DNA from: Lichina pygmaea
Lineage: Eukaryota > Ascomycota > Lichinomycetes > Lichinales > Lichinaceae
Direction: 5' to 3'
Assembly (NCBI GenBank): GCA_963422465.1
Contig: OY730171.1
Location: forward strand, 3,224,001-3,288,000
DNA length: 64,000 nt
The notes beneath the pieces were generated by a model. That model was given only the letters and a program-made list of their open reading frames with translations. It was not told the DNA's origin and searched no databases. Numbering within the stretch: the stretch's first letter is position 1; every line of letters begins with the position of its first letter. The position numbers and the translations under genes are program-made. Shown piece after piece: positions 2,773-40,437 of the stretch.

Positions 2773-2910
2773 AACAGCTGAGCCAAGCAGAAGCTCAGAG
2801 AGACTCAGAGGTGCACTCCCAGAAGTGCAAATTCTTTCTTCAAGATCAGCCAACTCTGGAGGAAAGCTACCAGCTAACTCCTTCAAGATCTTTGATGCTG
2901 AGATGTCTGC

Positions 2911-14700: not shown

Positions 14701-14888
14701 AAGATTGTGGATTCAAGATCACAACTTTTGACAAACACGCGTGGTTCTCAAAGGTGATGGGTTTTCACCTTAAGGTTTGAGTGGTTTCAGAGAGGAACTC
14801 AGCTGTTTTCCAGAATATATGACAAATTGTGGTGTTTGTCAAAAATGATGGTCCTTGAAGGACGTGGTTCCGGGAAGAGTTGCAGCTG
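14701..14888. other. Unassigned flank between two LINE pieces
   Basis: About 190 bp containing TTTGACAAACAC near 14727 and its near-inverse GTGTTTGTCAAAAATG near 14837. The latter could be the ends of a small insertion or the remaining 5' UTR of the neighbouring LINE. I cannot assign it. Confidence 0.25.
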
Positions 14889-18100: not shown

Positions 18101-19492
18101 AGGAGACACAAAGAGAGAGACTTCCTCCTGGTGCACACTATGTGCTGTGGTCATGATTGTCTTGGCAAGATGTGTGGTTTGTGACGTCTTGCCATCAAAC
18201 AATCACAATGTGTGTGGGTAGGGGAGAGGTTCTTGGTGAAGAGATTGTGCAAAGGAAGCACCAATGCAGCCAAATGCTGAACAGCCAGAGTTAATAAGAG
18301 TATTACACTTGAATTTCCCATCTAGGATACAAGGAAGAAACAAGCACTTGCTGTCCAATTGCTGGTCTGGAGACAGATAGCCAACATGGAGATCCTTTTC
18401 ATGTTCTTGGGTGTGATGATGACCAAGGACTACTTGTTTTCTGACTCTGGAGTAGTCTCAACAGTGGCAGACTTGGTGGTGGTTGTGGTGGTGGCAACAA
18501 CAGGTATGCTTTTCACTGGACAGAAGGTTGAGACATGACCTTGGTTCCCACAGTAGAAGCAGAGGTCTTTGCTTCAGTGATGTTCTCACTCTTCTGGTGT
18601 CAGCTTAGAGTAGCTGAGATCTATGGTAGGACTTGGTGGCTGTGGCGTGAAGGCTGGCTTGATGAACCCTGGACACAGAACTGAAGCTCCTGACTGTGGA
18701 ACTGAGGCTTGGGTGGGAGGTACTTGACGTGGACAGCGAGAGTTGGCAGAAGTGGCACACAACTGGTTGTCCTGCAGCTGGCATTTCTCAACAAGCTTCT
18801 GATAGCTGATGTCCTTGAGGTTGATGCTGACAAGCTGCTTGGCAAGCTCTTCAGAGACAGCACATCGAAGATGGCACTTCAAGACCTTGTTGTTGAAGCC
18901 TGTGTGTGGAGCATACTGATTGAACTCTGTGAAGAACTCAGCAAAGAAACAGTTGGCCTGACGCAAGGTGATAAGCTTCCTCTGAGCTAGGAACTCTGGG
19001 TCTGGGTCGGAGAAGGTGTTCCGGAGATCTTGGACAATGTTGTACCAGTCAATGTACTGGCCAGCCGTGATCTTAGCTGAGATGTAGGACTGCGCAGTGC
19101 CAGTCGTGTGTGAAAAGATGTACGCAATCCACGATGTTTCCGTGGGGTACCAGTCAGTGTTGAGTGTCATCTTGAGTGACAGTGACGTGATGAAGCTCTC
19201 AAGCTTCTCATGTGTGATTTCCGTGTTTCCTCCATCACCACTGAAGATTTCTGGATCAGCAGTACATTCAGACTTGGACTTGGGAGTGGTGTTGGTAGCT
19301 TGAATTTGTATGAACTCTGCAAACATGTTGCAAAGGAACTTGTTATTTCCAGCAACTGGCATAGCTTGGTCTGGTTGTTGAGACATGACAAGGATGTGAA
19401 CGTGGCTTGGTGAAGTGTGTTATAGTTGGGTTGGTCTTTCGTAGTGTGACAAGGCAATGGTAGAGCAGAACTCAAGCCTAACTGATCCAGTA
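15176..19492 (-). mobile_element. Ty3/gypsy element D, fossil body with 5' LTR end
   Basis: Reverse-strand gypsy fossil. From 5' to 3' of the element: the last 75 bp of the 5' LTR (19492-19418, ending TATAACA), a short leader, gag (19386-18586, MSQQPDQAMP start, retrotransposon-gag-like), a Cys/His-poor linker, protease (18202-17996, ILGMPWLQKH block), reverse transcriptase and connection (17956-16961), RNase H (16807-16559) and integrase (15831-15424). Gag and pol are broken several times. The 3' LTR is absent; the element is cut at 15175. The rest of its 5' LTR lies at 39570-39794, displaced 20 kb by the LINE insertion. A different gypsy lineage from A and B; no chromodomain seen. Old. Confidence 0.8.
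19481..19492. repeat. Target-site duplication, left copy, of the chimeric LINE
   Basis: ACTGATCCAGTA, repeated exactly at 39558-39569 immediately after the LINE's A-rich tail. It lies inside the 5' LTR of gypsy D and marks the insertion of partner RNA plus LINE as one event. Confidence 0.92.
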
Positions 19493-20609
19493 GGCCTGCA
19501 ACAACTCGAACCTCCACGTGGTGCAGGCTGGGAACCTCGGAGCAGTCGATGGCGGGCGGCTTCCCAGGCTGCTCGTAGTCGCTGCACCAAGAGCTAATCG
19601 AGTCACCGGTCGAGCTGCTGGTGTTGCGGAGTGACGGGCCACCGGAGGTGTCGCGCAGGCACTCTGGACGCCCCCGTGAAACAGCTACAGCAGAACAGAG
19701 GACTGCGACCAAGCTTGGGAGATGAAAACCACCCGACAGACAACTACTGTGTACGCTACAGCCCGAAGCCAGCCCCACAGCTGGTGGATGTGAAGTCTAG
19801 GCGTCTGATAGGGCACCTCTGGAGTAGTCGAGAGGAGTTCTCATCACGTCACCCTCCTAGCAGAGTCTCCAGCTAACGCGTGAGGATCTGCTAGGGGGGG
19901 AGTGGCCTTGGCACCGCGGTGTTGTTAATCGAACGTGGACCACCTGTTAAAGAAGGAGAGTGGTCGTACAAGGAGACGTCGCCGCTCCAGTGCCTAAGGG
20001 CTGTGTGATAGCCAAAGTGCTGGCTTGATGGTTTTGCCTAAGGCCTTGCCACGAAGTCTCTTCGTACAATCCACAATCTGGGGCCAGGGGACTGGGTTAT
20101 CCAGTGGGCCAACAGGTGCAACCGGGGCCCCACAGGCGACAGCGGACCAAGGAGAACTTCTCCCTACTTGGTTAGTGGGCTGGAAAGGCGGCCCTGCAGG
20201 TGCTGGCACGGCCTGCAGGGTCTGTAAGGCCTGCGAGGCATGGTCGGCCTTCGTACAAGAGATCTGCGAAGGTAACGCAAAACAGTTAACAACTGCGAGG
20301 CATGGCATATAATGGCAGTGACGGAGGTAGGGTCTGGGCCTACTACGAGACTGTCTATATAGCCCGAGAGGACGGATGCGCATGCTGGTTTGTACGGAGT
20401 GCAGGCTTAGGCTGCAAACAACAAGCTCAGGGAGCAAACTACAGTTGGAGCGTGGGCTCTGGGCTGGTGACCCAGCGCTCTGAAGCAGGATCCCAGGGGT
20501 GAGCACGTACGGCGGAGTGCAAGAGACCTCGGGACTGTGGGAAAGTGTGGTAGAGACCCTGTGGGGGGGTGCCAACTCTACACTATGTTCTGGCATAGTA
20601 CGACTGTGG
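19493..20609 (+). repeat. Chimera-partner RNA element, copy 2 (full length)
   Basis: 1,117 bp colinear with copy 1 (1426 down to 303). It begins GGCCTGC directly after the target-site duplication and can form the same 5' stem (GCCTGC with GCAGGC at ~19524). It ends in ACTATG-TTCTGG-CATAGT plus ACGACTGTGG, then the LINE endonuclease region. The outer stem pair is A-T here and G-C in copy 1, so the hairpin is kept by a compensating change. GC-richer than copy 1 and therefore less decayed. No domain is recognised in any frame. It was inserted together with the LINE (see target-site duplication), so it is not the LTR of gypsy D. Confidence 0.75.
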
Positions 20610-20954
20610 TCCTTTCTTCCTCTCTACTGTTCAGAGATTGGCAGAACACTTTTTCTTATTAATAAAAATCTGAAACTCTCTTCTCTTCATCCTACCTTCT
20701 GGAATAAAGACTTTGTTTCTCTTGAAATCTACTTGGAAAACTCTTCTACTTCTCTTTGAGTACATAATCTCTACTTCACCCCATCAAGTCAAGAAAACTA
20801 CACAGAGGCATCAGAAGCTCTTCTCTGTTTACTCCAAAATGCTTTACAAGAACAAGGACAACATATTCTTCTCACAGACTCAAATCTTCACCACCCAGAC
20901 TGGTCAAAGAAAAGAAGACTGTACTCTGAGACTGCAAACAAGTTTCAAGACCTA

Positions 20955-21781
20955 ATGAAAGATTTAAATCTGGATTTAGCTATTGCACCTTTCACCCCTA
21001 CCAGAGCAAGATCTCTTTCTGAAAAACCATGTTCTTCTATTGATCTGTCTTTTATTTCTTCTTCTCTTTCTACCTCTCTGATTTTCTCTAAAGTGGCTCT
21101 TCAGTTCTTTCATGGGTCTGACCACAGACCTGTACTAACCTGCCTGGACCTGGATCCTCCAAGGAAAATCTGGAAACCAGAAAGAAACTGGAGAACACTG
21201 GACTCAAACCTTGCAAGAGTAGAGTGTGAGAAGCTACACCTGCCCTTCCACTTCCAAGACAAATATGAAGTGGATGAGTACTTGGAGTATCTTGACAACT
21301 TTCTCCAAGAAATAGCAAGCAAATCCACACAGCTCCAGAAGCAATCTGGCCACTCAGTTCCCTGGTGGAATCAAGAGATCCAAAACAAGGTTAAAGAGGA
21401 AAGAAGAGTAAGAAGAAAAGTGCAAAAAAGGCAAGCAAGTCAAGAGGAACTTGAGCAAGCAACTAAGCTCAAGAAAAAGGCAGTCAGAGATGGAAAACAG
21501 AACACTTTCAGACACCAAATCCATGAGCTGGCCAGCTCTTCAAAGTTCTGGAAGCTTGCAAAGTGGGGAAAGTCCAAAGCCAACAAGACTCCTGATCTTC
21601 CTCTGGTTCCTGACCTGGAAACACAAGAAGGAATAGCCAAAACCTTTGAGGAAAAAACTAAAGCCTTCTCACAACAGTTCTTTCCAAAAGCTCTAGTTCC
21701 AGAACCAGGCTCAGAAAGCTCCCAGACTATCTCTGAGATACAGCTCTCCCAGGAGGTAACATGTGAAGAAGTGGAGCAAAT
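20955..21781 (+). pseudogene. LINE ORF2 endonuclease-RT linker, interrupted by gypsy A
   Basis: An open frame with the C-terminal half of the APE endonuclease (GSDHRPVLTCLDLD), the basic linker and the start of RT (EEVEQI). It is cut at the CAAAT insertion site of gypsy A; the natural continuation (LAKKK) resumes at 28210. Upstream LINE sequence (20610-20954) is in the same frame apart from a TGA near 20758. Confidence 0.85.
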
Positions 21782-22375
21782 TGTTACGACCCAGGAGGAA
21801 CACAGTCTTTATATACTCACAGAAAGCAGCAGACAGGATACTGGACAGAAGTACCAGACAGCGTGACACGGGAACCAGTCACGTGACCGGCGAGACAAAC
21901 CAGGGGGTGCTCGCCGCAGCATGCATATGCATGAACAAGTGAGCAAAGTGAGCAGAGCTCACCCAGCTCGCCGCAGCGTGCATGAAAAGTGAGCAAAGTG
22001 AGCAGAGCTCACCCAGCTCACCGCAGCGTGCATGAAAAGTGAGCAAAGTGAGCAGAGCTCACCCAGCTCACTGCAGTGTGCATGAAAAGTGAGCAAAGTG
22101 AGCAGAGCTCACTCTGCTCACGAACTGGGCACTATATAGTCTGGCGATAGTTCCCCTATGGAACAATCATCTTCAACTCATGTTGTGATCCAGACAACTA
22201 GATCTACTTCAATACAATCCTTTTGTACAAAGCTGTTGATCAGGTGTCACCACCACCACGTTCCACCAAACCCCTTTGCACTCCTTGACACTCCTCTCCT
22301 GCGAGAACCAACCTGCCTTCCACCTCTCACCCTAATCCTATACTCAGATAGGACAATACGGTACAGACTGCAACA
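21782..22375 (+). repeat. 5' LTR of gypsy A (594 bp, four 50-bp units)
   Basis: Runs from TGTTACGACCC to CTGCAACA. U3 carries four 50-bp tandem units (each with GTGAGC...GCTCAC), and TATATAG is at 22133-22139. The likely transcription start, about 35 bases on, lies in a CTTCAACTCATG block conserved in all family LTRs. Confidence 0.93.
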
Positions 22376-25300
22376 CTTTGAAGACCCTCAAGGATGAGTA
22401 CCTCAGGAGCAACCAACCCCAACTTCCCAGATGGAAAGATTAGTGTCGCCAAGCCAGACCTGTTCTACAGTGAAAGGAACAAGGTTGACGACTGGCTCAT
22501 GCAACTCCAAGTCTACTTTCAATTCCAACCAGAGACAAAGCTGCCTAAGGACAAGTGGCCCCTCTTCGCAACCACTTACATGAGAGGCAATACTTATTGA
22601 TGGATCAAGCCCTACGTCAACAAACATCTCTCAGGAAACAGAGACCATGACAGCACAACAGAATGGATGACAAAATGGACATAATTCAAGGACAAGATCA
22701 AAAGGATTCTTGGACTATCTAACAAAGACAAAGTGGCTATACGAATGATCCAGCACATCAAACAACAACGCTCAGCCGCAGAGTACACCACGCAGTTCAA
22801 ACAATACTCAGTACTGACTGACTGGGACAATAACACCCTGATGGTCATGTACTGACGTGGACTCAAGGAAAACATGAAGGATGAAATCACCTTCGACAGA
22901 CAAGCAGTCAACACACTGGACGAACTCATCACACAAGCAATCAACATTGATGACAAGCTATTCGAGCGAGTGATGGAGAAACACCATGACAGAGGATACA
23001 GCCACCCTGCATAGCATGTGAGCAACCACTACAAGCTGCCTAACAAGGCACCACCACATGACCCATATGGCTATGCACCCATGGAACTGGATGCAGTCCA
23101 CCACAAGGGAAGGTTCACAAAGGGAAGGAACAACAAAAAGAGGAAAGCACTGAAGTGCTATGCCTGTGGCAAGCTAGGCCACATGGTGAAAGACTGTTGT
23201 TCAAAGAACAAGGTGCACTGACAGCAACTTAATACGCTCGACGGAGACTGGAATGTCATTGAGCCAGAGAACCCACCAGGAGAGGCTCAGCTATCCCTTG
23301 AACAATAGGACAACTACGATCAGACATTGGAAGCAGCCCACCAACTGGCAACATCAGGAGGCAAGAACCTACCAGAACTGACAGGTCAGGACAAGAGACA
23401 GGAGCCCTTAACCACCTCTGATGGGGACTGAGATGAACCCACGTCTATCAAAGAAGAAATACCACAAGGAAGCTATGCTTACAGCATAGACCCACGAAAT
23501 CTACAGCACAGCGAACTACAGTGGAGGTTTTGCACAAAGCACTACTACACCTACCACAAACAACTACAAAGGTACGGAGAACATTCACCCTACCACGCCA
23601 CCTGCCACAAGCATTGAGTCAATTGCGAGAAGGATGTGTGTGAGATCCATCTTTGGGACAAACGCCAACACACCACATTCCCCGGGCACACACATGATTG
23701 GCACAAACACCTCATGTTCCTACAGCAAGGCAACAACTACAACTGCTACATCAACAATTGGCAGTACTGCCTCAAGCCTGGATGTGACAAGCATCAGCAA
23801 GACAAATTCATGAACAGATTCCTCAGAACTGATGGGAATGGCTGGACCCATTGCCCAGTCAGTGGTAAGACACTTCAATCAGGAAAAGACTGAACTCTCT
23901 TGTCAAGGGGTGACATCAGGAGCTCAACAACATAACCCCTAGCAACACAAAGCACCTGCGATTGCCTGTGTCACTACACGCCAACACGCCAGTACAGACA
24001 TACGCACTTGTTGACTCTGGAGCCAGTGGAAACTACATCTCAAGACAACTTTACAATACCCTCAGCACTGGAAGGAGACGCAAGCAGCAGCCCTATCAGC
24101 TCGCGATAGCAAATGGACAGACAGAGCTAGTCTGCCATGAGACGCAGCCAATGGAAATAGTTACCGAACACCATGCTGAAAGGATCCACCTTGATATTGT
24201 TGAGTTGGCCACTCAGGATATCTATTTGGGGATGCCTTGGCTAAAGAAGCACAACCCAGTTGTTAACTGGAAGACAGGAGTACTCACATTTAGGAACTGC
24301 ACTAACAACACAGCTCAGACCTGTTACCAGCCACAGAAGGCATGGACAGATGAGGGAAGAAGTCCTCAGTGGAACCTCACTGACAGAAAGAACAACTCTC
24401 AAGAAAAGAGGTCTGCCTTGACAGGCACACCCCAGAACCAGGTGGCCAAACAGTCAGAGATGAAGAGAGAGGAAGTTGTTAACCCTCTGGAGATCTCTGA
24501 AGAGTACTGACCTGAGTATGATAACCTCTTTCAGGAAGAGACAACAACAGCAGTGTTGCCTAAGCACCAACCTTGGGATCATGAGATCAAGTTGCAACCA
24601 GGGACAGAGCCAGAATTTGGACCAATTTACCAGTTATCAGAGAAAGAGCTCCAAGTACTTCGCGAGTACCTGGAGGAAAACCTGAAAAAGGGTTTCATTC
24701 AAGAATCTCAATCACCAGCAGGATACCCGATACTATTTGCACCAAAGAAAGACAGAAGTCTTCAACTTTGTGTGGATTACAGGAAACTCAACAACATTAC
24801 CATCAAGAACTGATATCTGTTGCCAAATGCGAACGAATTGCGAGACAGGATCAGCCAAGCTACAATCTTTACCAAGCTGGACTTGAAAGGAGCATACAAC
24901 CTGATACACATGAAATAAGGAGAAGAATGGAAGACAGTCTTCAGAACCTGATACAGACACTACAAGTATCTGGTTATACTATTCAGACTCATAAACGCAC
25001 CAGCAACATGTCAAGCATTGATCAACAACATCATCAGAGCACACCTGGACCAAACAGCTATCACCTACCTGGACAACATTCTTGTCTACTCGAACACACA
25101 ACAGGAACATACCAAACATGTGAAGGATGTTCTACAATGCCTACAACAGGCAGGGCTCAAGCTCAACCCAAAGAAATGCGAGTTCAACAAACCGGAAGTT
25201 GAATTCCTTGGATATGTTATAGGGATTGAAGGGATCAAGATTGACTCTGAGAAAATCAAAGTGATTCAGCAATGGCCAACACTGATGTCAGTTAAGGAAG

Positions 25301-27357
25301 TACAAGCCTTCCTAGGATTTGCCAACTTCAACTGACAGTTCATTAAGACTACTCACAGATGGCAACACCACTAACAGAACTCACGAAGAAGGACATGGAG
25401 TACTGGTGGATGGAGAGACAACAAAAAGTATTCCAACAGCTCAAGGACACTTGTGCCAAGGAACCAGTTCTCCTTAACTTCAAGACAGGCCAACCAACAC
25501 AAATCAAGACGGACACTTCAGATCAGGCAGTAGGAGCATGTCTATGCCAACAGGCAGACGGCAAGTGGCACCCAGTTGCCTACTACTCACGAAAAATGAC
25601 ACAAGTGGAACAAAACTATGATATCCACGATAAAGAGCTACTGGCAGTTGTCAACATACTCGAACACTGGAGAGTGTACGCGGAAAGCAGTTCTGAACTC
25701 ACTGTTCTCACAGACCACAAGAATCTGACAACATTCACGACAACCAAGAAGCTGAACAGACAGCAAGTCAGATGGGCTGAACTCCTAGGGCAACACAAGT
25801 TCAAGATCTTGTACACCCCTGGACAAGACAACAGGAGAGCAGACGCACTAAGCTGACGAAAAGACTACATGGAAGATGATGAACACCAAGGAATGATCTT
25901 ACAGCAGGACCAGCAAGGAAACCTGGTGCCTCAACCACAGATCAACAAGCTCACGGCAGAAGACACTGAAGAACTAATAAGGAACTACTACGATAATCCA
26001 GCACATAGTCACCCAGGAATCTCCAAGACCACAGACCTTATCCAACAGGCAGGGAACAATGTCATTAACCTCTGACAACATGTCACAAACTACATCAGCA
26101 AGTGTCTACTATGCCAGAAAAACAAACATGGAAGACACAAGCTATACGGAGAAGGACACCCGAACATGATACTGAGAGGTCTGTGGGAAGACATGTCAAT
26201 AGACTTCATCACAAAGCTACCCAAGTCCAAAGACCCAGTCACAGGAATCACCTATGACTTGATTATGGTGATAGTGGACAGATTCACAAAATATCTAATA
26301 GCAGTACCATTCAAGAAGACCCACACAGCAGAACAGTTGGGACACCTTTTACTGGACAGATTGGTCAGAGACCACGGAGTTCCAATCATGATTATTACAG
26401 ACAGAGACAAACTCTTCACATCCAACTACTGGAAGACAATCAGTGCAGCCATGGGAACAAAACCCAAAATGTCTACAGCCTATCACCCACAAACTGACAG
26501 CCAGACAGAGTGAGCAAACCAAGTCCTGGAGACTTACTTACAGCATTACATCAACCAGACCCACAGCAATTGGGTACAGTTATTACTGGTGGCACAGCTG
26601 GCAATCAACCAGCACAGATCGGACTCAACAAAGGAATCACTATTTTTTGCCAATTTTGGATGACATGCGAACATCAGGATGCCAAGCAGAGCTTCACCAA
26701 ACACGGAGAAAGCACTCCAACATGACAAGCTCCTACGACAAACACACACGATGATGAGGCACTACTTTCAAGAGACCTCAGAAAGAATGCAACATCAAAT
26801 GGACAAGAAATCGAAAATGGCACCTCAGCTAAAGAAGGGGGATAAAGTCTACCTCCTTACAAGAAATTGGAAAACAAAGAAACCAAAGACAAAGAAACTT
26901 GACAACATCAAGGTCAGACTATTTTCAGTCAAAGAAAAAACAGGACCAGTCAACGTCAAGATACGACTACCAAGGGATGCCAGAGTCCATCCAAACTTTC
27001 ATATATCAATGATTGAACCAGCCGACCAGAGCACACCCTTGCAGGAAACATTCTATTACCAACCTGAAGAAGAACAAGAGTTTGAGATTGAACAGATCCT
27101 GGCTAGAAAAGGTCAGCAATACCTTGTCAAGTGGAAAGGATACCCAGACTCAGAAAATACCTGGGAACCACTCAAGAACCTCGCGAACTGCTGGCTTCTT
27201 CTGCGACAGTTTCGGCAGGAGCAGGACTGAACAGCTTGGCCTGCAGGAGAGACGTGTCAATAACTGATCAAGTCAAATCCTCACCATCTGACTCCATCTC
27301 TTTCACCAAGCACTGAAGCTTCTGCCTTGCACAGACCTCAGCGCCCTCCAACACCTT

Positions 27358-27680
27358 TCACTTCCGAGACAGACAAGCCTGCACTGTGGCAAGTTGTTCA
27401 AAGAGTGCATCACGTGTTGCCTTGTCAGCGGCAACATCCTCACAGAGGTTGTCCTGGGACATGTTCAAAGATTCCCAGAACACAGAGACACAAGACCTTC
27501 CGCGCTGAGTGCATGCAGCATATTTCAACTTATCGTCTTCTTCCAGCATCTGGAAGCACAGACAACCACGGAGAACACAAAAGTCGCAGGGCGTACGCAA
27601 AACAAAACCCTGATTGCGGATTTGAGCAGCCAGCTGAGTTCAGCTAACAGTCGCACGTGACTTTGGAGGTATGACCAGAT
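27358..27680 (-). other. Antisense Cys-rich frame in the 3' region of gypsy A (fossil)
   Basis: Between chromodomain and 3' LTR, on the strand opposite to gag-pol, a frame reads CDFCVLRGCLCF, then CVSVFWESL, then a charged, Leu-containing segment. The same order occurs in element B (31.1-31.6 kb) and element E (41.4-42.0 kb). It looks like a small zinc-binding plus coiled-coil protein encoded against the element. Broken here. No function known to me. Confidence 0.55.
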
Positions 27681-27715
27681 TTCATCAAGATGATGAAAGA
27701 TGGAGAGGAGGATAG

Positions 27716-28209
27716 TGTTACAACCCAGGAGGAACACAGTCTTTATATACTCACAGAAAGCAGCAGACAGGATACTGGACAGAAGTACCAGACAGCATGA
27801 CACGGGAACCAGTCACGTGACTGGCGAGACAAACCAGAGGGTGCTCGCCGCAGCATGCATATGCACGAACAAGTGAGCAAAGTGAGCAGAGCTCACCCAG
27901 CTCACCGCAGCGTGCATGAAAAGTGAGCAAAGTGAGCAGAGCTCACTCTGCTCACAAACTGGGCACTATATAGTCTGGCAATAGTTCCCCTATAGAACGA
28001 TTGTCTTCAACTCATGTTGTGATCCAGACAACTAGATCTACTTCAATACAATCCTTTTGTACGAAGCTGTTGATCAGGTGTCACCACCACCATGTTCCAC
28101 CAAACCCCTTCACGCTCCTTGACACTCCTCTCCTGCGAGAACCAACCCACCTTCCACCTCTCACCCTAATCCTATACTCAGATAGGACAGTACAGTACAG
28201 ACTGCAACA
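27716..28209 (+). repeat. 3' LTR of gypsy A (494 bp, two 50-bp units)
   Basis: TGTTACAACCC to CTGCAACA. It is 100 bp shorter than the 5' LTR, accounted for by two fewer 50-bp units. TATATAG is near 27967. Confidence 0.93.
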
Positions 28210-29793
28210 CAAATTCTGGCCAAGAAGAAACCTTTCACAGCAGGAGGGAGAGATAAGCTGCCAAATGGATTTCTGAGAGCTCTGGGGCCTAGGTTCTGCC
28301 AAGCTCTAGCTATTCTGACTTCAACATGCTGGAAACTGGAGTACTTCCCTGAAAGATTTAAGAGTGCAAAAACAGTCTGCTTGAGGAAACCTGGCAAGGG
28401 AATTTACAATCAAGCTAAAGCCTGGCGCCCTATAGCTCTGCTAAACACAACAGGCAAGCTGATGGAAGCTATTGCTGCAGCCAGACTAAGCAAGATAGCA
28501 GAAGAAGCTGGACTATTGCCAGATATCCAGATGGGCTTTAGAAAAGGAAGATCCACAGAAGCAGCACTTTTCCTTCTAACCTCCCAAGTGGAAAAAGTCT
28601 GGAAGGAAGGCATGGTTGCATCCCTACTCTCACTGGATATCTCAGGAGCCTATGACAGAGTTCTCCCCAAGATACTACAGCAAATTCTGAAAAGAAAAGG
28701 AATACCTGCCTGGCTAGCTTCCTGGATCTACTCCTTCTGTGATAAGCGCTCTACCACTCTTGTCTTTGATGATTCTGAGTCTTATTCTATTCCTATTCAT
28801 TGTGGAGTTCCTCAAGGTTCTCCATTATCCCCTATTCTTTTTCTATTCTACATTTCTGAATTGCATGAGACTGTGCATACTCCCTCTTCTGGTGTATCTG
28901 CCCTGGGGTTTGCAGATGATACAAATCTGCTTGCTTTTGGTCACTCCTTGAAAAGTAACCTTCTGAAGTTAAAGAACACACACCACAAATATCTATCCTG
29001 GGCTGCAAGACATGGAATAGTCTTCTCAGCTGAGAAATATGAAATACTTCATTTTTCCAGAAGAAGATCAGACAATCTTCAGCTCAAGCTCAGACTGGGG
29101 AATGTGATTCTCAAACCAAAAGAAGAAGTGTGAGTACTTGGAGTGTACCTAGATGCAAAGCTCCACTGGCACAAACACCAGAGGATTATTCTTCAAAAAG
29201 TACAGAAAGCACTCTCTTCTCTTTCTAGAACTTCCTATTCTACTTGGGGCTTTCCAGTTCACACATCACGTCTGGTGTACACTGCTATACTGAGATCTCT
29301 ACTGAGCTATGCAGTGGGGATCTGGTTTAACCCTCTAAGAAAATCCTCCAATATCTCTTCTCTTGTTTCATTTCAAAACAGATGCCTAAGACTTATTGGG
29401 GGTGCCTTCAAAGCCACTCCTTCTTTTCTATTAGAGAGTGAGCTTTTTCTTCTACCTCTAGACCCATACTTTAAATTTCGCACTGCCTGTTTTCTTTCTT
29501 CTATTCAAAACTCCCCTCTCAAATACTTTCTTGACAGTATCTTTTCCACTATTTCCAGCTATGCCTCTCTCTTGAAGAAACCTTTAAAGGAATCCTCAAC
29601 TATCTCTCCTAAGTGGAAATTCACTTGGTTAAGTCAAATAACTACTAACCAGGCTAGTTCAAAGAAAGAACTACAAAAGCTCTTTACTAAAGAGTGGGAA
29701 GACCAATAGGAAGAGAAGAAAAGAAGAAGCTATCCAGGCTGGCAGACTTTCTGTCAAAAGCCACACAAAAACAATCTGAAGCTCTACAAAGAG
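28210..29793 (+). mobile_element. LINE segment, tandem copy 1 (RT to near C-terminus)
   Basis: 1,584 bp of LINE ORF2 from the CAAAT site to the AAGAG site. It contains intact RT motifs (LDISGAYDRV, CGVPQGSPLS, GFADDT), a TGA near 29131 and a TAG at 29707. The CTATT site used by gypsy B in the other copy is empty here (28306-28310). The two copies differ at roughly one base in a hundred in the stretches I compared, so the duplication is recent relative to the LINE family. Confidence 0.88.
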
Positions 29794-30287
29794 TGTTACA
29801 ACCCAGGAGGAACACAGTCTTTATATACTCACAGAAAGCAGCAGACAGGATACTGGACAGAAGTACCAGACAGCGTGACACGGGAACCAGTCACATGACT
29901 GGCGAGACAAACCAGGGGGTGCTCGCCACAGCATGCATATGCACGAACAAGTGAGCAAAGTGAGCAGAGCTCACCCAGCTCGCCACAGCATGCATGAAAA
30001 GTGAGCAAAGTGAGCAGAGCTCACTCTGCTCATGAACTGGGCACTATATAGTCTGGTGATAGTTCCCCTATGGAACGATCGTCTTCAACTCATGTTGTGA
30101 TCCAGACAACTAGATCTACTTCAATACAATTCTTTTGTACAAAGCTGTTGATCAGGTGTCACCACCACCACGTTCCACCAAACCTCTTCGCACTCCTTGA
30201 CACTCCTCTCCTGCGAGAACCAACCCGCCTTCCACCTCTCGCCCTAATCCTATACTCAGATAGGATGGTACAGTACAGACCGCAACA
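29794..30287 (+). repeat. Hybrid LTR with mismatched flanks (AAGAG / CAAAT)
   Basis: A 494-bp LTR of the 50-bp-unit type (two units). Its left flank is AAGAG, as at the solo LTR 38501-39044; its right flank is CAAAT, as after gypsy A. A normal insertion would have identical flanks. It is the crossover product between an LTR at the AAGAG site and the 3' LTR of gypsy A, and it marks the joint of the tandem duplication. Confidence 0.9.
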
Positions 30288-30392
30288 CAAATTCTGGCCA
30301 AGAAGAAACCTTTCACAGCAGGAGGGAGAGATAAGCTGCCAAATGGATTTCTGAGAGCTCTGGGACCTAGGTTCTGCCAAGCTCTAGCTATT

Positions 30393-31032
30393 TGTTGCGG
30401 TCTGTACTGTACCGTCCTATCTGAGTATAGGATTAGGGTGAGAGGTGGAAAGCGGGTTGGTTCTCACAGGAGAGGAGTGTCAAGGAGTGCGAAGGGGTTT
30501 GGTGGAACATGGTGGTGGTGACACCTGATCAACAGCTTTGTACAAAGGATTGTATTGAAGTAGATCTAGTTGTCTGGATCACAACATGAGTTGAAGACAA
30601 TTGTTCCATAAGGGAACTATCACCAGACTATATAGTGCTGGCCTGTCAAGACAATCAAGATTGTCTTGACAGTCTTGACGTCAAGACAGGTGAGATTGTC
30701 TTGACAGTCCCACCATGTTATGCACCCTGCGTCAAGACTGGTGAGATTGTCTTGATGCTTCATGCATCCTGCGTCGATACTGGTGAGATTGTCTTGATGC
30801 TTCATGCATCCTGCGTCAAGACTGGTGAGATTGTCTCAATGCTTCATGCATCCTGCGTCGAGACTGGTGAGATTGTCTTGATGCTTCATGCATGCTGCGT
30901 CAAGACTCCCGTGTGTCTCAACAGTCACGTGACCCCTTGTTGGTTGGTCACTTGACTTCCATGGTGTCCTCTTGCCTGGCCCACAGCCTGATTGCCTATA
31001 AATGAGTGGCTCCCATCCCCTGGGTCATAACA
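30393..31032 (-). repeat. 3' LTR of gypsy B (640 bp, four 42-bp units)
   Basis: On the plus strand it runs TGTTGCGGTC to GTCATAACA. U3 holds four 42-bp units (about 30730-30905) and a near-perfect 30-bp palindrome with 14-bp arms (30643-30672) just upstream of TATATAG (30631-30637, reverse direction). Confidence 0.92.
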
Positions 31033-31600
31033 CTACCCTCCTCTCCTTCATTCATTGTCCTGATGAATTCTTGAGTATGTCTGCAAAATCACGTGCCTCT
31101 GCTTACCGAAACCAACTGGCAGCCCAGATCTGTGATCATAACTTCATGTTGCTTGCTCTGTGTGACTTCTGTGTTTTGAACCACAAGCCCTGCTTCTGAA
31201 TGTCTGACAACAACAATAAGTTGAAGTGCGCTGAATGCACTTGTCGTGGGAAGTCCTGTGTGTCACTTTCTTGGGAGTCGCTGAACATGACTTGGGATAA
31301 CCTTTGCAAGGATTTGGCTGTTGATGAGGCCAAGCGGGATGCTCTTGTTGAGCAGCTTGCCGAGCTGCAGGCTTGTGTGTCCTGAAAGCGAAAGGTTCTT
31401 GAGGGTGCTGAGGGTTGAGCAAAGAAGAAGCTCCAGTGCCTTGTTGCTGAAATGGAGGCGGATGGTGAAGACTTGTCGGCGACAGTCATTGACGCGTCCG
31501 CGCTGCAGGCCAAGCTGTTCAGTCCTGCTTCTGCTGGAACTGCTGCAGGAGGAGCTGGCAGTTCACAAGGTTCCTGAGTGGCTCCCAGGTATTTTCTGAG
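31033..31600 (+). other. Antisense Cys-rich coiled-coil frame in gypsy B (fossil)
   Basis: Opposite to gag-pol, from just inside the 3' LTR toward the chromodomain. It reads MSAKSRASAYRNQLAAQI, CDFCVLNHKPCF, then CAECTCRGKSCVSLSWESL and a charged, Leu-rich, coiled-coil-like segment (VDEAKRDALVEQLAELQ and on). Colinear with the antisense frame of A. Broken. An upstream start may lie within the LTR, whose outward side could supply an antisense promoter. Confidence 0.6.
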
Positions 31601-34600
31601 TCTGGGTAGTTTTTCCACTTGACAAGGTATCACTGACCTTTTCTCTTCAGGATCTGTTCAGCCTTGAATTCCTGTTCTTCCTCTGGTTGGTAATGAAATG
31701 TTTCCTGCAAGGGTGTGCTCTGGTCAGCTAATTTGATCATTGAGATGTGAAAGTTTGGGTGTACCTGAGCGTCTCTCAGTAGTCGCAGTCTGATGTTGAC
31801 TGGTCTGGTTTTTTCTTCGACTGAAAATGGTCTGACCTTGACATGGTCCAGTTTCTTTGTTCTTGGTTTCTTCATTCTCCAATTTCTTGTGAGGAGGTAG
31901 ACTTTATCCCCCTTCTTTAGCTGAGGTGCTATTTTCAATTTCTTGTCCATTTGACGTTGCATTCTTTCTGAGGTCTCTTGAAGGTAGTGCCTTATCATCG
32001 TGTGCGTTTGTCGTAGGAGCTTGTCATGTTGGAGTGCTTTCTCCGTGTTTGGTGAAGCTCTGCTTGGCATCCCGATGTTCACATGTTGTCCAAAATTGGC
32101 AAAAAATAGTGATTCCTTTGTTGAGTCTGATCTGTGCTGGTTGATTGCCAGCTGTGCCACCGGTAATAACTGTACCCAATTGCTGTGGGTCTTGTTGATG
32201 TAATGCTGTAAGTAAGTCTCCAGGACTTGGTTCACTTGCTCTGTCTGGCTGTCGGTTTGTGGGTGATAGGCCATAGACATTTTGGGTTTTATTCCCATGG
32301 CTGCACTGATTGTCTTCCAGTAGTTGGATGTGAAGAGTTTGTCTCTGTCTGTAATGATCATGATCAGAACTCCGTGGTCTCTGACCAATCTGTCCAGTAA
32401 GAGGTGTCCCAACTGTTCTGCTGTGTGGGTCTCCTTGAATAGTACCACTATTAGATATTTTGTGAATCTGTCCACTATCACCATAATCAAGTTGTAGGTG
32501 ATTCCTGTGACTGGGTCTTTGGACTTGGGTAGCTTTGTGATGAAGTCCATCAACACGTCTTCCCACAGGCCTCTCGGTATCGTGTTCGGATGTCCTTCTC
32601 CGTATGGCTTATGTCTTCCATGTTTGTTTTTCTGGCATAGTAGACACTTGCTGATGTAGTTTGTGACATGTTGTCAGAGGTTAATGACATTGTTCCCTGC
32701 CTGTTGGATAAGGTCTGTGGTCTTAGAGATTCCTGGGTGACTATGTGCTGGATTATCGTGGTAGTTCCTTATTAGTTCTTCAGTGTCTTCTGCTGTGAGC
32801 TTGTTGATCTGTGGTTGAGGTACCAGGTTTCCTTGCTGGTCCTGCTATAAGATTGTTCCTTGGTGTTCATCATCTTCCATGTGGTCTTTTCGTCAGCTTA
32901 GTGCGTCTGCTCTCCCATTGTCTTGTCCAGGGGTGTACAAGATCTTGAACTTGTGTTGCCCTAGGAGTTCAGCCTATCTGACTTGCTGTCTGTTCAGCTT
33001 CTTGGTTATCGTGAACGTTGTCAGATTCTTGTGGTCTGTGAGAATGGTGAGTTCAGAACTGCTTTCCGTGTACACTCTCCAGTGTTCGAGTGCGTTGACG
33101 ACTGCCAGTAGCTCTTTATTGTGGATATCATAGTTTCATTCCGCTTGTATTATTTTTTGTGAGTAGTAGGCAACTGGGTGCCACTTGCCGTCTGCCTGTT
33201 GGCATAGACATGCTCCCACTGCCTGATCTGAAGTGTCCGTCTCAATTTGTGTCGGTTGGCCTGTCTTGAAGTTGAGGAGAACTGGTTCCTTGGCGCAAGT
33301 GTCCTTGAGCTGTTGGAATGCTTTTTGTTATCTCTCTGTCCACCAGTACTCCACGTCCTTCTTTGTGAGTTCTGTCAGTGGTGTTGCCATCTGTGAGTAG
33401 TTCTTGATGAACTGTCAGTTGAAGTTGGCAAATCCTAGGAAGGCTTGTACTTCCTTAACTGATGTCAGTGTTGGCCATTGCTGAATCACTTTGATTTTCT
33501 CAGGGTCAATCTTGATCTCTTCAATCCCTATGATGTATCTGAGGAATTCAACTTCCAGTTTGTTGAACTCGCATTTCTTTGGGTTGAGCTTGAGCCCTGC
33601 CTCTTGTAGGCATCGTAGAACATCCTTCACATGTTTGGTATGTTCTTGTTGTGTGTTCGAGTAGACAAGAATGTTGTCCAGGTAGGCGATAGCTGTTTGG
33701 TCCAGGTGTGCTCTGATGATGTTGTTGATCAATGCTTGACATGTTGCTGGTGTGTTTGTGAGTCCGAATGGCATAACCAGATACTTGTAGTGTCTGTATC
33801 AGGTTCTGAAGACTGTCTTCCATTCTTCTCCTTCTTTCATGTGTATCAGGTTGTATGCTCCTTTCAAGTCCAGCTTGGTAAAGATTGTAGCTTGGCTGAT
33901 CCTGTCTTGCAATTTGTTCGCATTTGGCAACAGATATCAGTTCTTGATGGTAATGTTGTTGAGTTTCCTGTAATCCACACAAAGTCGAAGACTTCTGTTT
34001 TTCTTTGGTGCAAATAGTATCGGGTATCCTGCTGGCAATTGAGATTCTTGAATGAAACTCTTTTTCAGATTTTCCTCCAGGTACTCGCGAAGTACTTGGA
34101 GCTCTTTCTCTGATAACTGGTAAATTGGTCCAAATCCTGGCTCTGTCCCTGGTTGCAACTTGATCTCATGATCCCAAGGTTGGTGCTTAGGCAACACTGC
34201 TGTCGTTGTCTCTTCCTGAAAGAGGTTATCATACCCAGGTCAGTACTCTTCAGGGATCTCCAGAGAGTTAACAACTTCCTCTCTCTTCATCTCTGACTGT
34301 TTGGCCACCTGGTTCCGGGGTGTGCCTGTTGAGGCAGACCTCTTCTCTTGAGAGTCATCCTTTCTGTCAGTGAGGTTCCACTGAGGACTCCTTCCCTCAT
34401 CTGTCCACACCTTCTGCGGCTGGTAACAGGTCCGAGCTGTGTTGTTAGTGCAGTTCCTAAACATAAGTACTCCTGTCCTCCAGTTAATAACTGGGTTGTG
34501 CTTCTTTAGCCAAGGCATCCCCAAATAGATATCCTGAGTGGCCAACTCGACAATATCAAGGTGGATCCTTTCAGCATAGTGTCCGGTAACTATTTCCATT

Positions 34601-36374
34601 GGCTGCGTCTTATGGCAGACTAGCTCTGTCTGTCCATTCACCATCGTGAGCTGATAGGGCTGCTGCTTGCGTCTCCTTCCAGTGCTAAGGGTGTTGTAGA
34701 GTTGTCTTGAAATGTAGTTTCCACTGGCTCCAGAGTCAACAAGTGTGTATGTCTGTACTGGCGTGTTGGCGTGTAGTGACACAGGCAATCACAGGTGCTT
34801 TGTGTTGCTAGGGGTCATGTTGTTGAGCTCCCGATGTCGCCCCTTGACAAGGGAGTTCAGTTTTTTCCTGATTGAAGTGTCTTTCCACTGACTGGGCAAT
34901 GGGTCCAGCCATTCCCATCAGTCCTGAGGAATCTGTTCATGAATTTGTCTTGCTGATGCTTGTCACATCCAGGCTTGAGGCAGTACTGCCAATTGTTGAC
35001 GTAGCAGTTGTGGTTGTTGCCTTGCTGTAGGAACATGAGGTGTTTGTGCCAATCATGTGTGTGCCCGGGGAATGCAGTGTGTTGGCGTTTGTCCCAAAGA
35101 TGGATCTCACACGCATCCTTCTCGCAATTGACCCAATGCTTGTGGCAGGTGGCGTGGTAGGGTGAATGTCCTCTGTACCTTCGTAGTTGTTCGTGGTAGG
35201 TGCAGTAGTGCTTTGTGCAAAACCTCCACTGTAGTTCGCCGTGCCGTAGATTTCGTGGGTCCATGCTGTAAGCATAGCTTTCTTGTGGTATTTCTTCTTT
35301 GATAGACGTGGGTTCATCTCAGTCCCTATCAGAGGTGGTTAAGGGCTCCTGTCCCTTGTCCTGACCTGTCAGTTCTGGTAGTTCCTTGCCTCCTGATGTT
35401 GCCAGTTGGTGGGCTGCTTCCAATATCTGATCGTAGTTGTCCCATTGTTCAAGGGATAGCTGAGCCTCTCCTGGTGGGTCCTCTGGCTTGATGACATTCC
35501 AGTCTCCGTCAAGTGTATTAAGTTGCTGTCGGTGCACCTTGTTCTTTGAACAACAGTCTTTCACTATGTGGCCTAGCTTGCCACAGGCATAGCACTTCAG
35601 TGCTTTCCTCTTTTTGTTGTTCCTTCCCTTCGTGAACCTTCCCTTGTGGTGGACTGCATCCAGTTCCATGGGTGCATAGCCATATGGATCATGTGGTGGT
35701 GCCTTGTTAGGCGGCTTGTAGTGGTTGCTCACATGCCATGTGGGGTGGCTGTATCCTCTGTCGTGGCATTTCTCCATCGCTTGCTTGAATAGTTTGTTAT
35801 CGATGTTGATTGCTTGTGCGATGAGTTTGTCCAGTGTGTCGACCACTCGTCCGTCGAAGGTGATTTCATCCTTCATGTTTTCCTTGAGTCCACGTCAGTA
35901 CATGACCATCAGGGTGTTGTCGTCCCAGTCAGTCAGTACTGAGTATTGTTTGAACTGCGTGGTGTACTCTGCGGCTGAGTGTTGTTGTTTGATGTGCTGG
36001 ATCATTTGTATAGCCACTTTGTCTTCGTTAGATGGTCCAAGAATCCTTTTGATCTTGTCCTTGAATCGTGTCCATTTTGTCATCCATTCTGTTGTGCTGT
36101 TGTGGTCTCTGTTTCCTGAGAGATGTTTGTTGATGTAGGGCTTGATCCATTGATAAGCATTGCCTCTCATGTAAGTGGTTGCAAAGAGGGACCACTTTTC
36201 CTTAGGCAGCTTCATCTCTGGTTGGAATTGAAAGTAGACTTGGAGTTGCATGAGCCAGTCATCAACCTTGTTTCTTTCGCCGTAGAACAGGTCTGGCTTG
36301 GCAATGCTAATCTTTCCATCTGGGAAGTTGGGGTTGGTTGCTTCTGAGGTACTCATCCTTGAGGGTCTTCAAAG

Positions 36375-37016
36375 TGTTGTGGTCCGTACTGTACTGTCCT
36401 ATCCGAGTATAGGATTAGGGCGAGAGGTGGAAGGTGGGTTGGTTCTCGCAGGAGAGGAGTGTCAAGGAGTGCGAAGGGGTTTGGTGGAACGTGGTGGTGG
36501 TGACACCTGATCAACGGCTTCGTACAAAGGATTGTATTGAAGTAGATCTAGTTGTCTGGATCACAACATGAGTTGAAGACAATTGTTCCATAAGGGAACT
36601 ATCACCGGACTATATAGTGCTGGCCTGTCAAGACAATCAAGATTGTCTTGACAGTCTTGACGTCAAGACAGGTGAGATTGTCTTGATAGTCCCACCATGT
36701 TATGCACCCTGCGTCAAGACTGGTGAGATTGTCTTGATGCTTCATGCATCCTGTGTCAAGACTGGTGAGATTGTCTTGATGCTTCATGCATCCTGCGTCA
36801 AGACTGGTGAGATTGTCTCGATGCTTCATGCATCCTGCGTCAAGACTGGTGAGATTGTCTTGATGCTTCATGCATGCTGTGTCAAGACTCCCGTGTGTGT
36901 CTCGACAGTCACGTGACCCCTTGTTGGTTGGTCACTTGACTTCCATGGTGTCCTCTTGCCTGGCCCGTGGCCTGATTGCCTATAAATGAGTGGCTCCCAT
37001 CCCCTGGGTCGTAACA
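36375..37016 (-). repeat. 5' LTR of gypsy B (642 bp, four 42-bp units)
   Basis: Partner of 30393-31032. Over the first ~230 aligned bases I count about a dozen differences, all of them transitions. The primer-binding segment (CTTTGAAGACCC in element orientation) adjoins it at 36374-36363. Confidence 0.92.
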
Positions 37017-38500
37017 CTATTCTGACTTCAACATGCTGGAAACTGGAGTACTTCCCTGAAAGATTTAAGAGTGCAAAAACAGTCTGCTTGAGGAAACCTG
37101 GCAAGGGAACCTACAATCAAGCTAAAGCCTGGCGCCCTATAGCTCTGCTAAACACAACAGGCAAGCTGATGGAAGCTATTGCTGCAGCCAGACTAAGCAA
37201 GATAGCAGAAGAAGCTGGACTATTGCCAGATATCCAGATGGGCTTTAGGAAAGGAAGATCCACAGAAGCAGCACTTTTCCTTCTAACCTCCCAAGTGGAA
37301 AAAGTCTGGAAGGAAGGCATGGTTGCATCCCTACTCTCACTGGATATCTCAGGAGCCTATGACAGAGTTCTCCCCAAGATACTACAGCAAATTCTGAAAA
37401 GAAAAGGAATACCTGCCTGGCTAGCTTCCTGGATCTACTCCTTCTGTGATAAGCACTCTACCACTCTTGTCTTTGATGATTCTGAGTCTTATTCTATTCC
37501 TATTCATTGTGGAGTTTCTCAAGGTTCTCCATTATCCTCTATTCTTTTTCTATTCTACATTTCTGAATTGCATGAGACTGTGCATACTCCCTCTTCTGGT
37601 GTATCTGCCCTGGGGTTTGCAGATGATACAAATCTGCTTGCTTTTGGTCACTCCTTGAAAAGTAACCTTCTGAAGTTAAAGAACACACACCACAAATGTC
37701 TATCCTGGGCTGCAAGACATGGAATAGTCTTCTCACCTGAGAAATATAAAATACTTCATTTTTCCAGAAGAAGATCAGACAATCTTCAGCTCAAGCTCAG
37801 ACTGGGGAATGTGATTCTCAAACCAAAAGAAGAAGTGCGAGTACTTGGAGTGTACCTAGATGCAAAGCTCCACTGGCACAAACACCAGAGGATTATTCTT
37901 CAAAAAGCACAGAAAGCACTCTCTTCTCTTTCTAGAACTTCCTATTCTACTTGGGGCTTTCCAGTTCACACATCACGTCTGGTGTACACTGCTATACTGA
38001 GATCTCTACTGAGCTATGCAGTGGGGATCTGGTTTAACCCTCTAAGAAAATCCTCCAATATCTCTTCTCTTGTTTCATTTCAAAACAGATGCCTAAGACT
38101 TATTGGGGGTGCCTTCAAAGCCACTCCTTCTTTTCTATTAGAGAGTGAGCTTTTTCTTCTACCTCTAGACCTATACTTTAAATTTCACACTGCCTGTTTT
38201 CTTTCTTCTATTCAAAACTCCCCTCTCAAATACTTTCTTGACAGTATCTTTTCCACTATTTCCAGCTATGCCTCTCTCTTGAAGAAACCTTTAAAGGAAT
38301 CCTCAACTATCTCTCCTAAGTGGAAATTCACTTGGTTAAGTCAAATAACTACTAACCAGGCTAGTTCAAAGAAAGAACTACAAAAGCTCTTTACTAAAGA
38401 GTGGGAAGACCAATGGGAAGAGAAGAAAAGAAGAAGCTATCCAGACTGGCAGACTTTCTGTCAAAAGCCACACAAAAATAATCTGAAGCTCTACAAAGAG

Positions 38501-39044
38501 TGTTACGACCCAGGAGGAACACAGTCTTTATATACTCACAGAAAGCAGCAGACAGGATACTGGACGGAAGTACCAGACAGCGTGACACGGGAACCGGTCA
38601 CGTGACCGGCGAGACAAACCAGGGGGTGCTTGCCGCAGCATGCATATGCACGAACAAGTGAGCAAAGTGAGCGGAGCTCACCCAGCTCGCCGCAGCGTGC
38701 ATGAAAAGTGAGCAAAGTGAGCAGAGCTCACCCAGCTCACCGCAGCGTGCATGAAAAGTGAGCAAAGTGAGCAGAGCTCACTCTGCTCACGAACTGGGCA
38801 CTATATAGTCCGGCGATAGTTCCCCTATGGAATGATTGTCTTCAACTCATGTTGTGATCCACACAACTAGATCTACTTCAATACAATCCTTTTGTACGAA
38901 GCTGTTGATCAGGTGTCACCACCACCACATTCCACCAAACCCCTTCACACTCCTTGACACTCCTCTCCTGCGAGAACCAACCCGCCTTCCGCCTCTCGCC
39001 CTAATCCTATACTCGGATAGGACGGTACGGTACAGACCGCAACA
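38501..39044 (+). repeat. Solo LTR (544 bp, three 50-bp units) at AAGAG
   Basis: TGTTACGACCC to CCGCAACA, flanked by AAGAG at 38496-38500 and 39045-39049. A clean solo LTR in the LINE near its C-terminal zinc finger region, in the same orientation as gypsy A. Confidence 0.93.
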
Positions 39045-39557
39045 AAGAGTTACAGAAAGCTGAGGCAAGTCTGCTACTGCAAATCAGGACTGGAAGAATT
39101 GGTCTGGCAAGTTTTCTTTTCAGAGCTGGAGCTCCTGACTTCCCTACCCCACTATGTGTGTGTGGCCAAGCAGAAGAAACTGCAAAACATATCACCTCTT
39201 TATGCTCTCTTTATTCAAGACAAAGACAACAAGTCTCTTTTAATCCCCAAGACTTCACCACTATTATTTCAAACCCAGAGCTACTACAGAAGTTCTTGTA
39301 CTGGTTTATGTCTTTGAAAAGACTAAACCAGTTTAATCTAGCTTTCAAACTCCACTATTCCCAATCCAATACCTAGATTCTCTTCTCTTACCAGAAACTT
39401 CAAGATTCCTTTTGTTACATTCCCTAGTCACACCCTGCCTTCAGTTTTTATCCCTTCAAAGGTTTTCTGAAGGAGTTCACTATTAGCTAGAAGATCTGCA
39501 TGGCTGTAAAGCTACTACCAGTGTAAGAATCAAATAAATAAAAAATAAATAAAAAAA
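39045..39557 (+). mobile_element. LINE 3' end with tail (last piece of the chimeric LINE)
   Basis: It holds the C-terminal zinc finger (CVCGQAEETAKHITSLC), the ORF2 stop at 39374-39376, a ~155-bp 3' UTR with the conserved CAGTGTAAGAATCAAATAAA end, and a mixed A/AAAT tail. The right target-site duplication follows at 39558. Confidence 0.92.
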
Positions 39558-39569
39558 ACTGATCCAGTA
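39558..39569. repeat. Target-site duplication, right copy, of the chimeric LINE
   Basis: ACTGATCCAGTA, identical to 19481-19492. The sequence after it continues the gypsy D LTR that stops at 19492. Confidence 0.92.
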
Positions 39570-40271: not shown

Positions 40272-40437
40272 CCACAGTTGAGCTATGCCAAGGTATAGCA
40301 CAGAGTCGCTATCCTTTGCAGAGTCTCTGCCACACTTCCCCACAGTCCTGAAGCTTTTTGCACTCTGCTGTGTACACTCACCTCTAGGTCCTGCTTCAGA
40401 GTGCTGAGTTGCCAGCCTGGAGCCCACACTCTAACTG
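40272..40437 (-). repeat. Chimera-partner RNA element, copy 3 (3'-terminal 166 bp)
   Basis: It matches the last part of copies 1 and 2, including the terminal hairpin (GCTATACC-TT-GGCATAGC, one mismatch) and CAACTGTGG before the LINE. The 5' part is lost at 40437, where gypsy E starts. Confidence 0.75.

Follow-up and report, generated by a model that had tools for sequence, protein, structure and literature searches.

Chimeric retroelements are currently explained by accidental template switching. In the fungus Magnaporthe, such elements reportedly came to light in 2005 with the WEIRD-MGL chimeras of Fudal. In these elements, also called MINE, the full-length 1113-nucleotide (nt) WEIRD RNA is fused to 5'-truncated MGL long interspersed nuclear elements (LINEs), and the available part of the published description (Gogvadze 2007, PMC2104539) gives duplications of 10 to 20 bp for 19 of 31 MINEs, no solo WEIRD, and fusion sites of the form GCC|A/U, the bar marking the fusion point. 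Here we analyze a comparable chimera on contig OY730171.1 of Lichina pygmaea, whose genome amounts to 32.5 Mb in eight contigs. Throughout, 'the window' means the whole stretch of 64,000 nt analyzed (positions 3,224,001 to 3,288,000), and P is our name for the partner element joined to a LINE within it.

The likeness to MINE, the closest precedent, is close, and the basic phenomenon, a 1.1-kb RNA on 5'-truncated LINEs in a fungus, was already published between 2005 and 2007. Both systems place a full-length non-coding RNA of about 1.1 kb, in sense, on variably 5'-truncated LINEs; both include tripartite forms and non-random fusion sites, and in neither were solo copies found (PMC2104539, available part). 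P-LINE chimeras likewise consist of a full-length RNA as the 5' part and a 5'-truncated LINE in the same orientation, with flanking duplications. Their truncation sites are non-random, unlike those of mammalian chimeras, which have been described as random. The two fungal systems differ in copy number (31 MINEs versus 246 copies of a P block) and in site motif (GCC|A/U versus CT|YC and A[A/G]|YC for P subfamilies A and B, respectively), as far as the accessible part of PMC2104539 goes. No ribozyme or guide is reported for WEIRD in that part, and in the open-access literature we found no report linking WEIRD or MINE to a hepatitis delta virus (HDV)-like ribozyme or to a guide. Two published WEIRD primers (PMC3978060, available part) match P at only 11-12 of 20 bases, a comparison limited to those primers. 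What is new here, beyond the precedent, is a ribozyme-like fold at P nt 1, lost LINE bases that depend on the P subfamily, and an internal P sequence complementary to the fusion sites.

From these features we propose, as a probable though far from certain reading, that P parasitizes LINEs as a non-autonomous, non-coding retroelement RNA: it would pair with LINE RNA through an internal guide, be joined to it precisely, and be copied by the LINE machinery. If base pairing to the partner RNA does fix the fusion sites, the place of attachment on the LINE transcript is an active choice of some non-autonomous elements, and eukaryotic retrotransposition would include an RNA-guided, possibly RNA-catalyzed step. 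This could also account for two puzzles of WEIRD, the solo gene that was never found and the non-random fusion sites.

The insertion at 19480-39569

An earlier note on this DNA had read P and the LINE as one chimeric retrocopy, bracketed by a duplication and lying in an element that continues across the gap. The duplication is real and, at 13 bp, one base longer than claimed, the first A of AACTGATCCAGTA being assignable either to the duplication or to the tail. When both strands of the window were searched, AACTGATCCAGTA occurred solely at 19480-19492 and 39557-39569, against a chance expectation of about 0.002 occurrences. Its upstream copy abuts P nt 1 (19493) exactly, and its downstream copy lies directly 3' of an A-rich tail. 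Moreover, the two flanks, joined computationally, match locus L028 (4220-3783) at 94% over 439 bases, unbroken across the join. Among the loci in hand, L028 is the sole other copy of the target site that spans the join, and it is empty, so the empty site that had been sought exists and separate arrivals of partner and LINE were not seen. The surrounding element does run through the gap; we call it gypsy-like from gag matches that are weak, below the Pfam cut-offs.

Because the duplication brackets both parts and a related copy of the target is empty, the sequence evidence confirms that P and the LINE came in as a single insertion. The duplication, the A-rich tail and the 5' truncation support an insertion of LINE type, with P full length and in sense. 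The LINE now lies in four pieces (Table 1), consecutive in LINE order and overlapping by 5-9 bases, which is what three later insertions would leave.

The P family and its 5' ribozyme-like fold

P belongs to a repeated family: a conserved 28-nt block occurs 246 times in the genome (up to three mismatches) versus 0 times for the reversed control. A search with the 1117-bp partner, of subfamily P-A, scored the best 40 of 303 candidates by a scheme that favours full-length copies; among the 41 matches listed, the window copy included, 39 span nt 1-1117, one spans 2-1117 and one, a diverged tandem piece, 46-1117. For subfamily P-B, whose consensus of 1124 nt is about 80% identical to P-A, 40 of 305 candidates were scored, and the 40 scored matches (window copy included) begin at nt 1 or 2 and extend to at least nt 1118. 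Both subfamilies end in CTGTGG. A third subfamily, P-C (1144 nt; guide block matched 12 times when two mismatches are allowed), combines a largely B-like body with an A-like guide. As for duplications at other copies, which the note had proposed to map, 13 of the 21 full-length P-A copies with long flanks have one of 11-14 bp flush with P nt 1, and the other eight have none that is convincing.

The longest open stretches reach 104 codons (A consensus) and 139 codons (B) on the plus strand, and 204 and 108 codons on the minus strand. Apart from ribozyme models, Rfam returned nothing credible in P, and one exact P pattern apiece had no match in IMG/VR and in bacterial and archaeal genomes. Beyond the ribozyme, the remainder of P also looks like structured RNA: an alifold prediction for A and B contains 17 pairs changed on both sides and nine broken, counts that lean favourably since the structure was predicted from the same alignment.

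HDV-like ribozymes cleave directly before their own first base; helices are named here in HDV numbering. The full Rfam HDV_ribozyme model matched from P nt 1, with 29.9 bits for P-A in a 151-nt scan (E 0.0055), 23.3 bits when the whole of P was scanned (E 0.77), and 40.6 and 40.1 bits for two P-B copies (E about 0.001, 2860 nt scanned). The expected topology is present, with P1, the P2 pseudoknot, P3, P1.1, P4, and J4/2 with the catalytic C; predicted cleavage falls at 19492/19493. In a covariation set of 25 sequences (18 distinct rows), 96.9% of helix cells over the distinct rows are paired versus 28-39% when the 3' strand is slid, and P2 pair 16/107 and P4 pair 62/82 have changed on both sides. 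Such a ribozyme, cutting just before nt 1 of read-through transcripts, would explain the constant 5' end of P. Several observations count against this assignment. Even the best score, 40.6 bits, is under the Rfam gathering threshold of 50, at which a scan of the window gave 0 matches; two P2 pairs are broken, each in 5 of the 18 rows; two of five shuffle measures (pairs with change, pair types with change) did not rise above the shuffles; and the window's own P copy is mismatched at the first P2 pair, so its ribozyme may be impaired.

HDV-like self-cleaving ribozymes at retrotransposon 5' ends are described for R2 and L1Tc/ingi in the available parts of the literature on them. P resembles these elements in its fold, in the position of the fold at element nt 1, and in the presumed release of the 5' end from read-through transcripts; there, however, the ribozyme sits at the LINE's own 5' end, whereas P is a separate non-coding RNA found on more than one LINE family. 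The nearest ribozyme-plus-foreign-LINE elements that we found are the R2/R1 hybrid short internally deleted elements (SIDEs) of Drosophila (PMC3414825, available part), with a ribozyme 5' end and the 3' end of another LINE, which mobilizes them. That source attributes SIDEs to internal deletion by recombination or repair, whereas P has many separate joints at guide-matching sites.

Ribozyme-bearing LINEs such as R2 and L1Tc, and the R2/R1 SIDEs, are nevertheless what one would cite in favour of taking P for the 5' untranslated region of a LINE family, and the chimeras for internally deleted or spliced LINEs. We consider this extremely improbable, given six LINE copies with the native 5' end AACTCTTCCC (the window LINE at 14882, and copies in L026, L019, L009, L016 and L017) that have differing flanks and no P at that end. 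In addition, the P end does not vary, whereas its fusion points are spread over 25 (A) and 16 (B) places in one LINE, and the bases before the fusion do not form a common splice acceptor. In the loci in hand, these copies indicate that P is not the LINE's normal 5' end, a case that the note had named as one that would refute it.

Fusion junctions and the candidate guide

The P 3' end was placed in 84 cases (48 A, 36 B) by a CTGTGG-like motif near the expected position; an 85th, L048, reads CTCTGG and was excluded. Twenty of the 84 junctions had been picked by an internal P block and not by their ends. A P-less copy giving the native upstream sequence was available for 79 of them, the five without being L009, L012, L017, L068 and the P-B end in L020; dropping these, together with 18 whose reference was weak or shifted, leaves 61 well-referenced junctions. 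The further partner-LINE fusions looked for were abundant: 48 of the 61 fall on one LINE family (at least 80% to the reference LINE), at many points, and three of the other 13 are joined to another P. Three of the unreferenced loci (L009, L012 and L020) have duplications, and their tails are A-rich or made of short repeats. In L012, L022, L027 and L020, P is fused to elements with AATC-like or TACCA repeat tails, which suggests that more than one LINE family mobilizes P.

Tandem fusions were also found, P-A onto P-B in L020 and P-B onto P-A onto LINE in L052 and L067, with joints at sites of the right type (CCT|CGG for A onto B; GGA|CTG and AAA|CCA for B onto A). These three loci indicate that P-bearing RNAs in turn act as fusion targets. 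They also bear on a possible origin of P as a circular viroid-like RNA replicon, whose HDV-like ribozyme would make both ends and which LINEs would fossilize. Constant P ends on both sides agree with such an origin, and so does the fact that no clear solo chromosomal P was seen among the 84 junctions (five of them without a reference). That absence, however, covers a minority of the 246 copies, the tandem cases use guide-type junctions, and a unit-to-unit P-P joint was not found with the one exact pattern searched; we hold a viroid-like origin to be very improbable.

Which LINE bases precede the fusion point in the native sequence depends on the P subfamily. Of 32 distinct A sites, 30 have T at -1 and 28 have C at -2; of 23 distinct B sites, two have T at -1 (Fisher 7e-11 for T) and two have C at -2. 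On the one LINE family, CT occupies -2,-1 at 20 of 25 A points and 0 of 16 B points, and on other targets at 6 of 7 A and 0 of 6 B; the resulting site motifs are CT|YC (A) and A[A/G]|YC (B). Even neighbouring LINE points are used by both, A at 4479 (CTAT|CC) and B at 4478 (TCTA|TCC). This A/B contrast is our internal control for site preference. At +1, C or T is found in 82 of the 84 junctions irrespective of subfamily. With references of at least 97% identity, the native +1 base is the exact start in 33 of 34 A and 20 of 22 B junctions.

Two candidate causes were rejected. Splicing was discarded as the source of the constant P end because no acceptor is shared: most A sites end in CT, most B sites in A or G. 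Microhomology does not select the -1/-2 bases, because those LINE bases are absent from the product; moreover, both subfamilies end in the same CTGTGG.

The published model for MINE is plain template switching at pauses of the reverse transcriptase (RT) or at RNA breaks, with hot spots GCC|A/U (PMC2104539, available part), and under it the motif would belong to the LINE RT or an RNase. The pyrimidine at +1, present whatever the subfamily, would suit this model, although the later junctions L100 and L102 have A there. An RT or RNase preference explains the -1/-2 bases poorly, because it should not depend on the acceptor RNA, yet the bases differ between A and B within a single LINE family, down to the neighbouring points 4478 and 4479. 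We therefore regard plain switching as quite improbable in Lichina.

Two short P sequences at the same place in the element, GGGAGAU (P-A nt 225) and UGGUUAU (P-B nt 223), are complementary to the A and B site motifs, respectively. This pair was first noticed by eye, and every P window was tested afterwards. For A sites, the nt 225 window ranks first among all P-A windows. Among 1105 homologous window pairs, the proposed guide is first by summed score (9.58; next 7.84) and by specificity (3.78; next 2.10; z 7.4), the best specificity of any window in 61 label shuffles being 1.13. A wider scan of A/B-differing windows, with length 5-7 and varied offset, covered 40,844 combinations, and its six top scorers share a single register on nt 223-231. 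Of the 33 A sites, 21 allow six or more of the seven pairs and 24 have 0 as their best register; of the 24 B sites, 9 allow six or more pairs. The background of such pairing over LINE positions is 4.9% for A and 2.7% for B. As predicted from the G versus U difference between the guides, a +3 purine is infrequent among A sites (6 of 33) and common among B sites (16 of 24; P 3e-4). From the A versus B contrast, the guide core at -1, -2 and +3 is well supported.

These data also modify the mechanism given in the earlier note. The fusion of a 1.1-kb RNA to a LINE stands; a chance switch of the LINE RT onto an unrelated RNA is not supported, because the partner is repeated and structured, and the fusion sites follow a partner-subfamily-specific preference that matches an internal partner sequence. 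It is also conceivable that the guide match is coincidental and that, for joining, each of the two subfamilies relies on a protein machinery of its own with its own sequence preference. Variants that do not fully follow the guide (A3 and P-C, below) and the lack of a recognized catalytic core in P fit that idea; against it, the best-discriminating window pair fits both motifs in one register, and both subfamilies use the same LINE family. We rate this explanation improbable.

Predictions for single guide bases, drawn from small variant sets, are mixed and not well supported. Of 20 guide-variant loci fetched, 12 have a readable P 3' end. Later A-type junctions have CT in 6 of 7 (L088, L090, L100, L102, L104, L105; L091 has AT), and three later B-type junctions have no CT, two of them with references of 81-84% only. 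For the B3 variant, three of the four readable sites carry T at +1, one of them (L065) where the reference has C.

Other observations speak against a guide-directed choice of sites. Of the seven later A-type junctions, four (L088, L090, L104, L105) repeat LINE points already in the set, which makes them a weak check, and +1 is A in L100 and L102. The A3 variant (G227A) predicts T at +1, and its three readable sites all have C, a fourth copy, L089, running into other sequence; A2 shows no clear effect at -4. P-C, with its A-like guide, has T at -1 in one of three sites with a usable reference and C at -2 in all three; nine further P-C loci were fetched, of which three have the usual end, one an altered end and five no readable end, the reference being 71% only for L094 and absent for L110. 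With B sites taken alone, UGGUUUU at nt 545, a sequence also present in A, scores higher (4.63) than the guide window (4.50, second), and the best register is 0 in just 13 of these 24 sites. Among the 18 dropped junctions, CT precedes the fusion point in three of the seven A cases and in none of the 11 B cases. P-less 5'-truncated LINEs could not be assembled into a control set from the loci in hand, which yielded one clear case (L026, minus strand). Finally, no Rfam group I or II intron was found in scans of P-A whole (to E 5), P nt 198-1117 (to E 10) and two P-B copies (to E 3), so no catalyst was recognized.

Taken as a sequence of steps, the proposed parasitism of LINEs by P would begin with release of the exact P 5' end by the ribozyme. 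A guide of 5-8 nt within P nt 223-231 would then pair with LINE RNA across the future fusion point, from about -4 to +4; the terminal G of P would be joined to the LINE +1 base, with loss of the upstream LINE sequence; and the P-LINE molecule, with its LINE 3' tail, would be copied into the genome by target-primed reverse transcription. Because the junctions are exact to the base, we favour joining at the RNA level, by analogy with the first step of reverse splicing. In that step, a target paired with the guide is attacked by the 3' end of the RNA, which thereby acquires the 3' part of the target. Self-splicing introns of groups I and II recognize their targets by such guides (internal guide sequences and exon-binding sites). 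Like them, P has a short internal sequence that would pair across the joint, ends in G and is linked to the 3' part of the target; it differs in having no group I/II match, no obligatory U.G at -1, and a 5' end at an HDV-like ribozyme.

The nearest alternative is a guided template switch, in which the guide would tether P to the LINE RNA and an RT stalled in the duplex would jump to the P 3' end, with no joining of RNA. The guide data fit it equally well, R2 is reported to jump from its template onto U12 and tRNA sequences (PMC3414825, available part), template switching is the published MINE model (PMC2104539, available part), and a few junctions (L026, L053, L056, L065) do differ from the native +1 base. 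Such an RT would, however, have to stop at the same base within a short duplex each time, and 53 of 56 well-referenced junctions start exactly at the native +1; the LINE -1/-2 bases are never copied, yet they are the most conserved. On these grounds we think a guided switch unlikely, though more worthy of attention than the other rivals.

RNA-level joining could be carried one step further, to a view in which P represents a new class of mobile RNA, a parasite that is equipped with a ribozyme, directed by a guide and able to splice itself in trans onto LINE 3' parts. On this view WEIRD would be a distantly related member of that class, with another guide whose trace is the hot-spot motif. We put forward these two ideas together, and tentatively. 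One could take GCC|A/U (PMC2104539, Table 3) for the sequence complementary to a WEIRD guide.

Other features of the window

The window contains a fungal transcription-factor domain and LINE domains. Besides the chimera described above, it includes two further P-LINE fusions on the minus strand (Table 1); in the full-length one, the guide UGGUUAU is at 1204-1198 and the fusion site reads GAAA|TCC.

Table 1. Positions of the P-LINE chimera, its parts and related features in the window
Feature	Position	Strand	Remarks
5' target site duplication AACTGATCCAGTA	19480..19492	+	in gypsy-like element; empty site in L028
P, subfamily A, full length, 1117 nt, apparently non-coding	19493..20609	+	
HDV-like ribozyme fold (predicted)	19493..19604	+	P1 19493-19499/19523-19529, P2 19503-19509/19598-19604, P3, P1.1, P4, J4/2 GCUAA
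Proposed guide GGGAGAU of P-A (P nt 225-231)	19717..19723	+	complementary to LINE sites AUCU|CCC
3' terminal hairpin of P, then tail ACGACTGTGG up to fusion point	20582..20599	+	
Fusion point P-LINE	20609..20610	+	native LINE sequence TCTCT|TCCTT
LINE part 1 (LINE reference nt 2008-3180)	20610..21782	+	
LINE part 2 (LINE reference nt 3175-3279)	30288..30392	+	
LINE part 3 (LINE reference nt 3275-3433 and 3792-5276)	37017..38501	+	
LINE part 4 (LINE reference nt 5268-5778), then A-rich tail	39042..39551	+	
3' target site duplication AACTGATCCAGTA	39557..39569	+	
Second fusion: full-length P, subfamily B, joined to LINE (302 down to 4)	303..1426	-	
Third fusion: 3' remnant of old P-B joined to LINE (40271 down to 39794)	40272..40437	-	site ATAA|CCAA
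LINE with own native 5' end AACTCTTCCC at 14882, no P	9063..14882	-	

Elsewhere in the genome, a nearly full-length P-B copy occupies C1:542-1660, with about 0.5 kb left to the end of that contig; the window itself belongs to contig C3. Within the window, an inverted repeat of 5.6 kb, 91.6% identical between its arms at 22129-27729 and 31019-36620, is nested in the LINE of the chimera. Directly upstream of the native LINE 5' end at 14882, an internal LINE fragment (nt 1558-1840) occupies 14889-15172 on the minus strand, possibly forming a LINE-LINE chimera.

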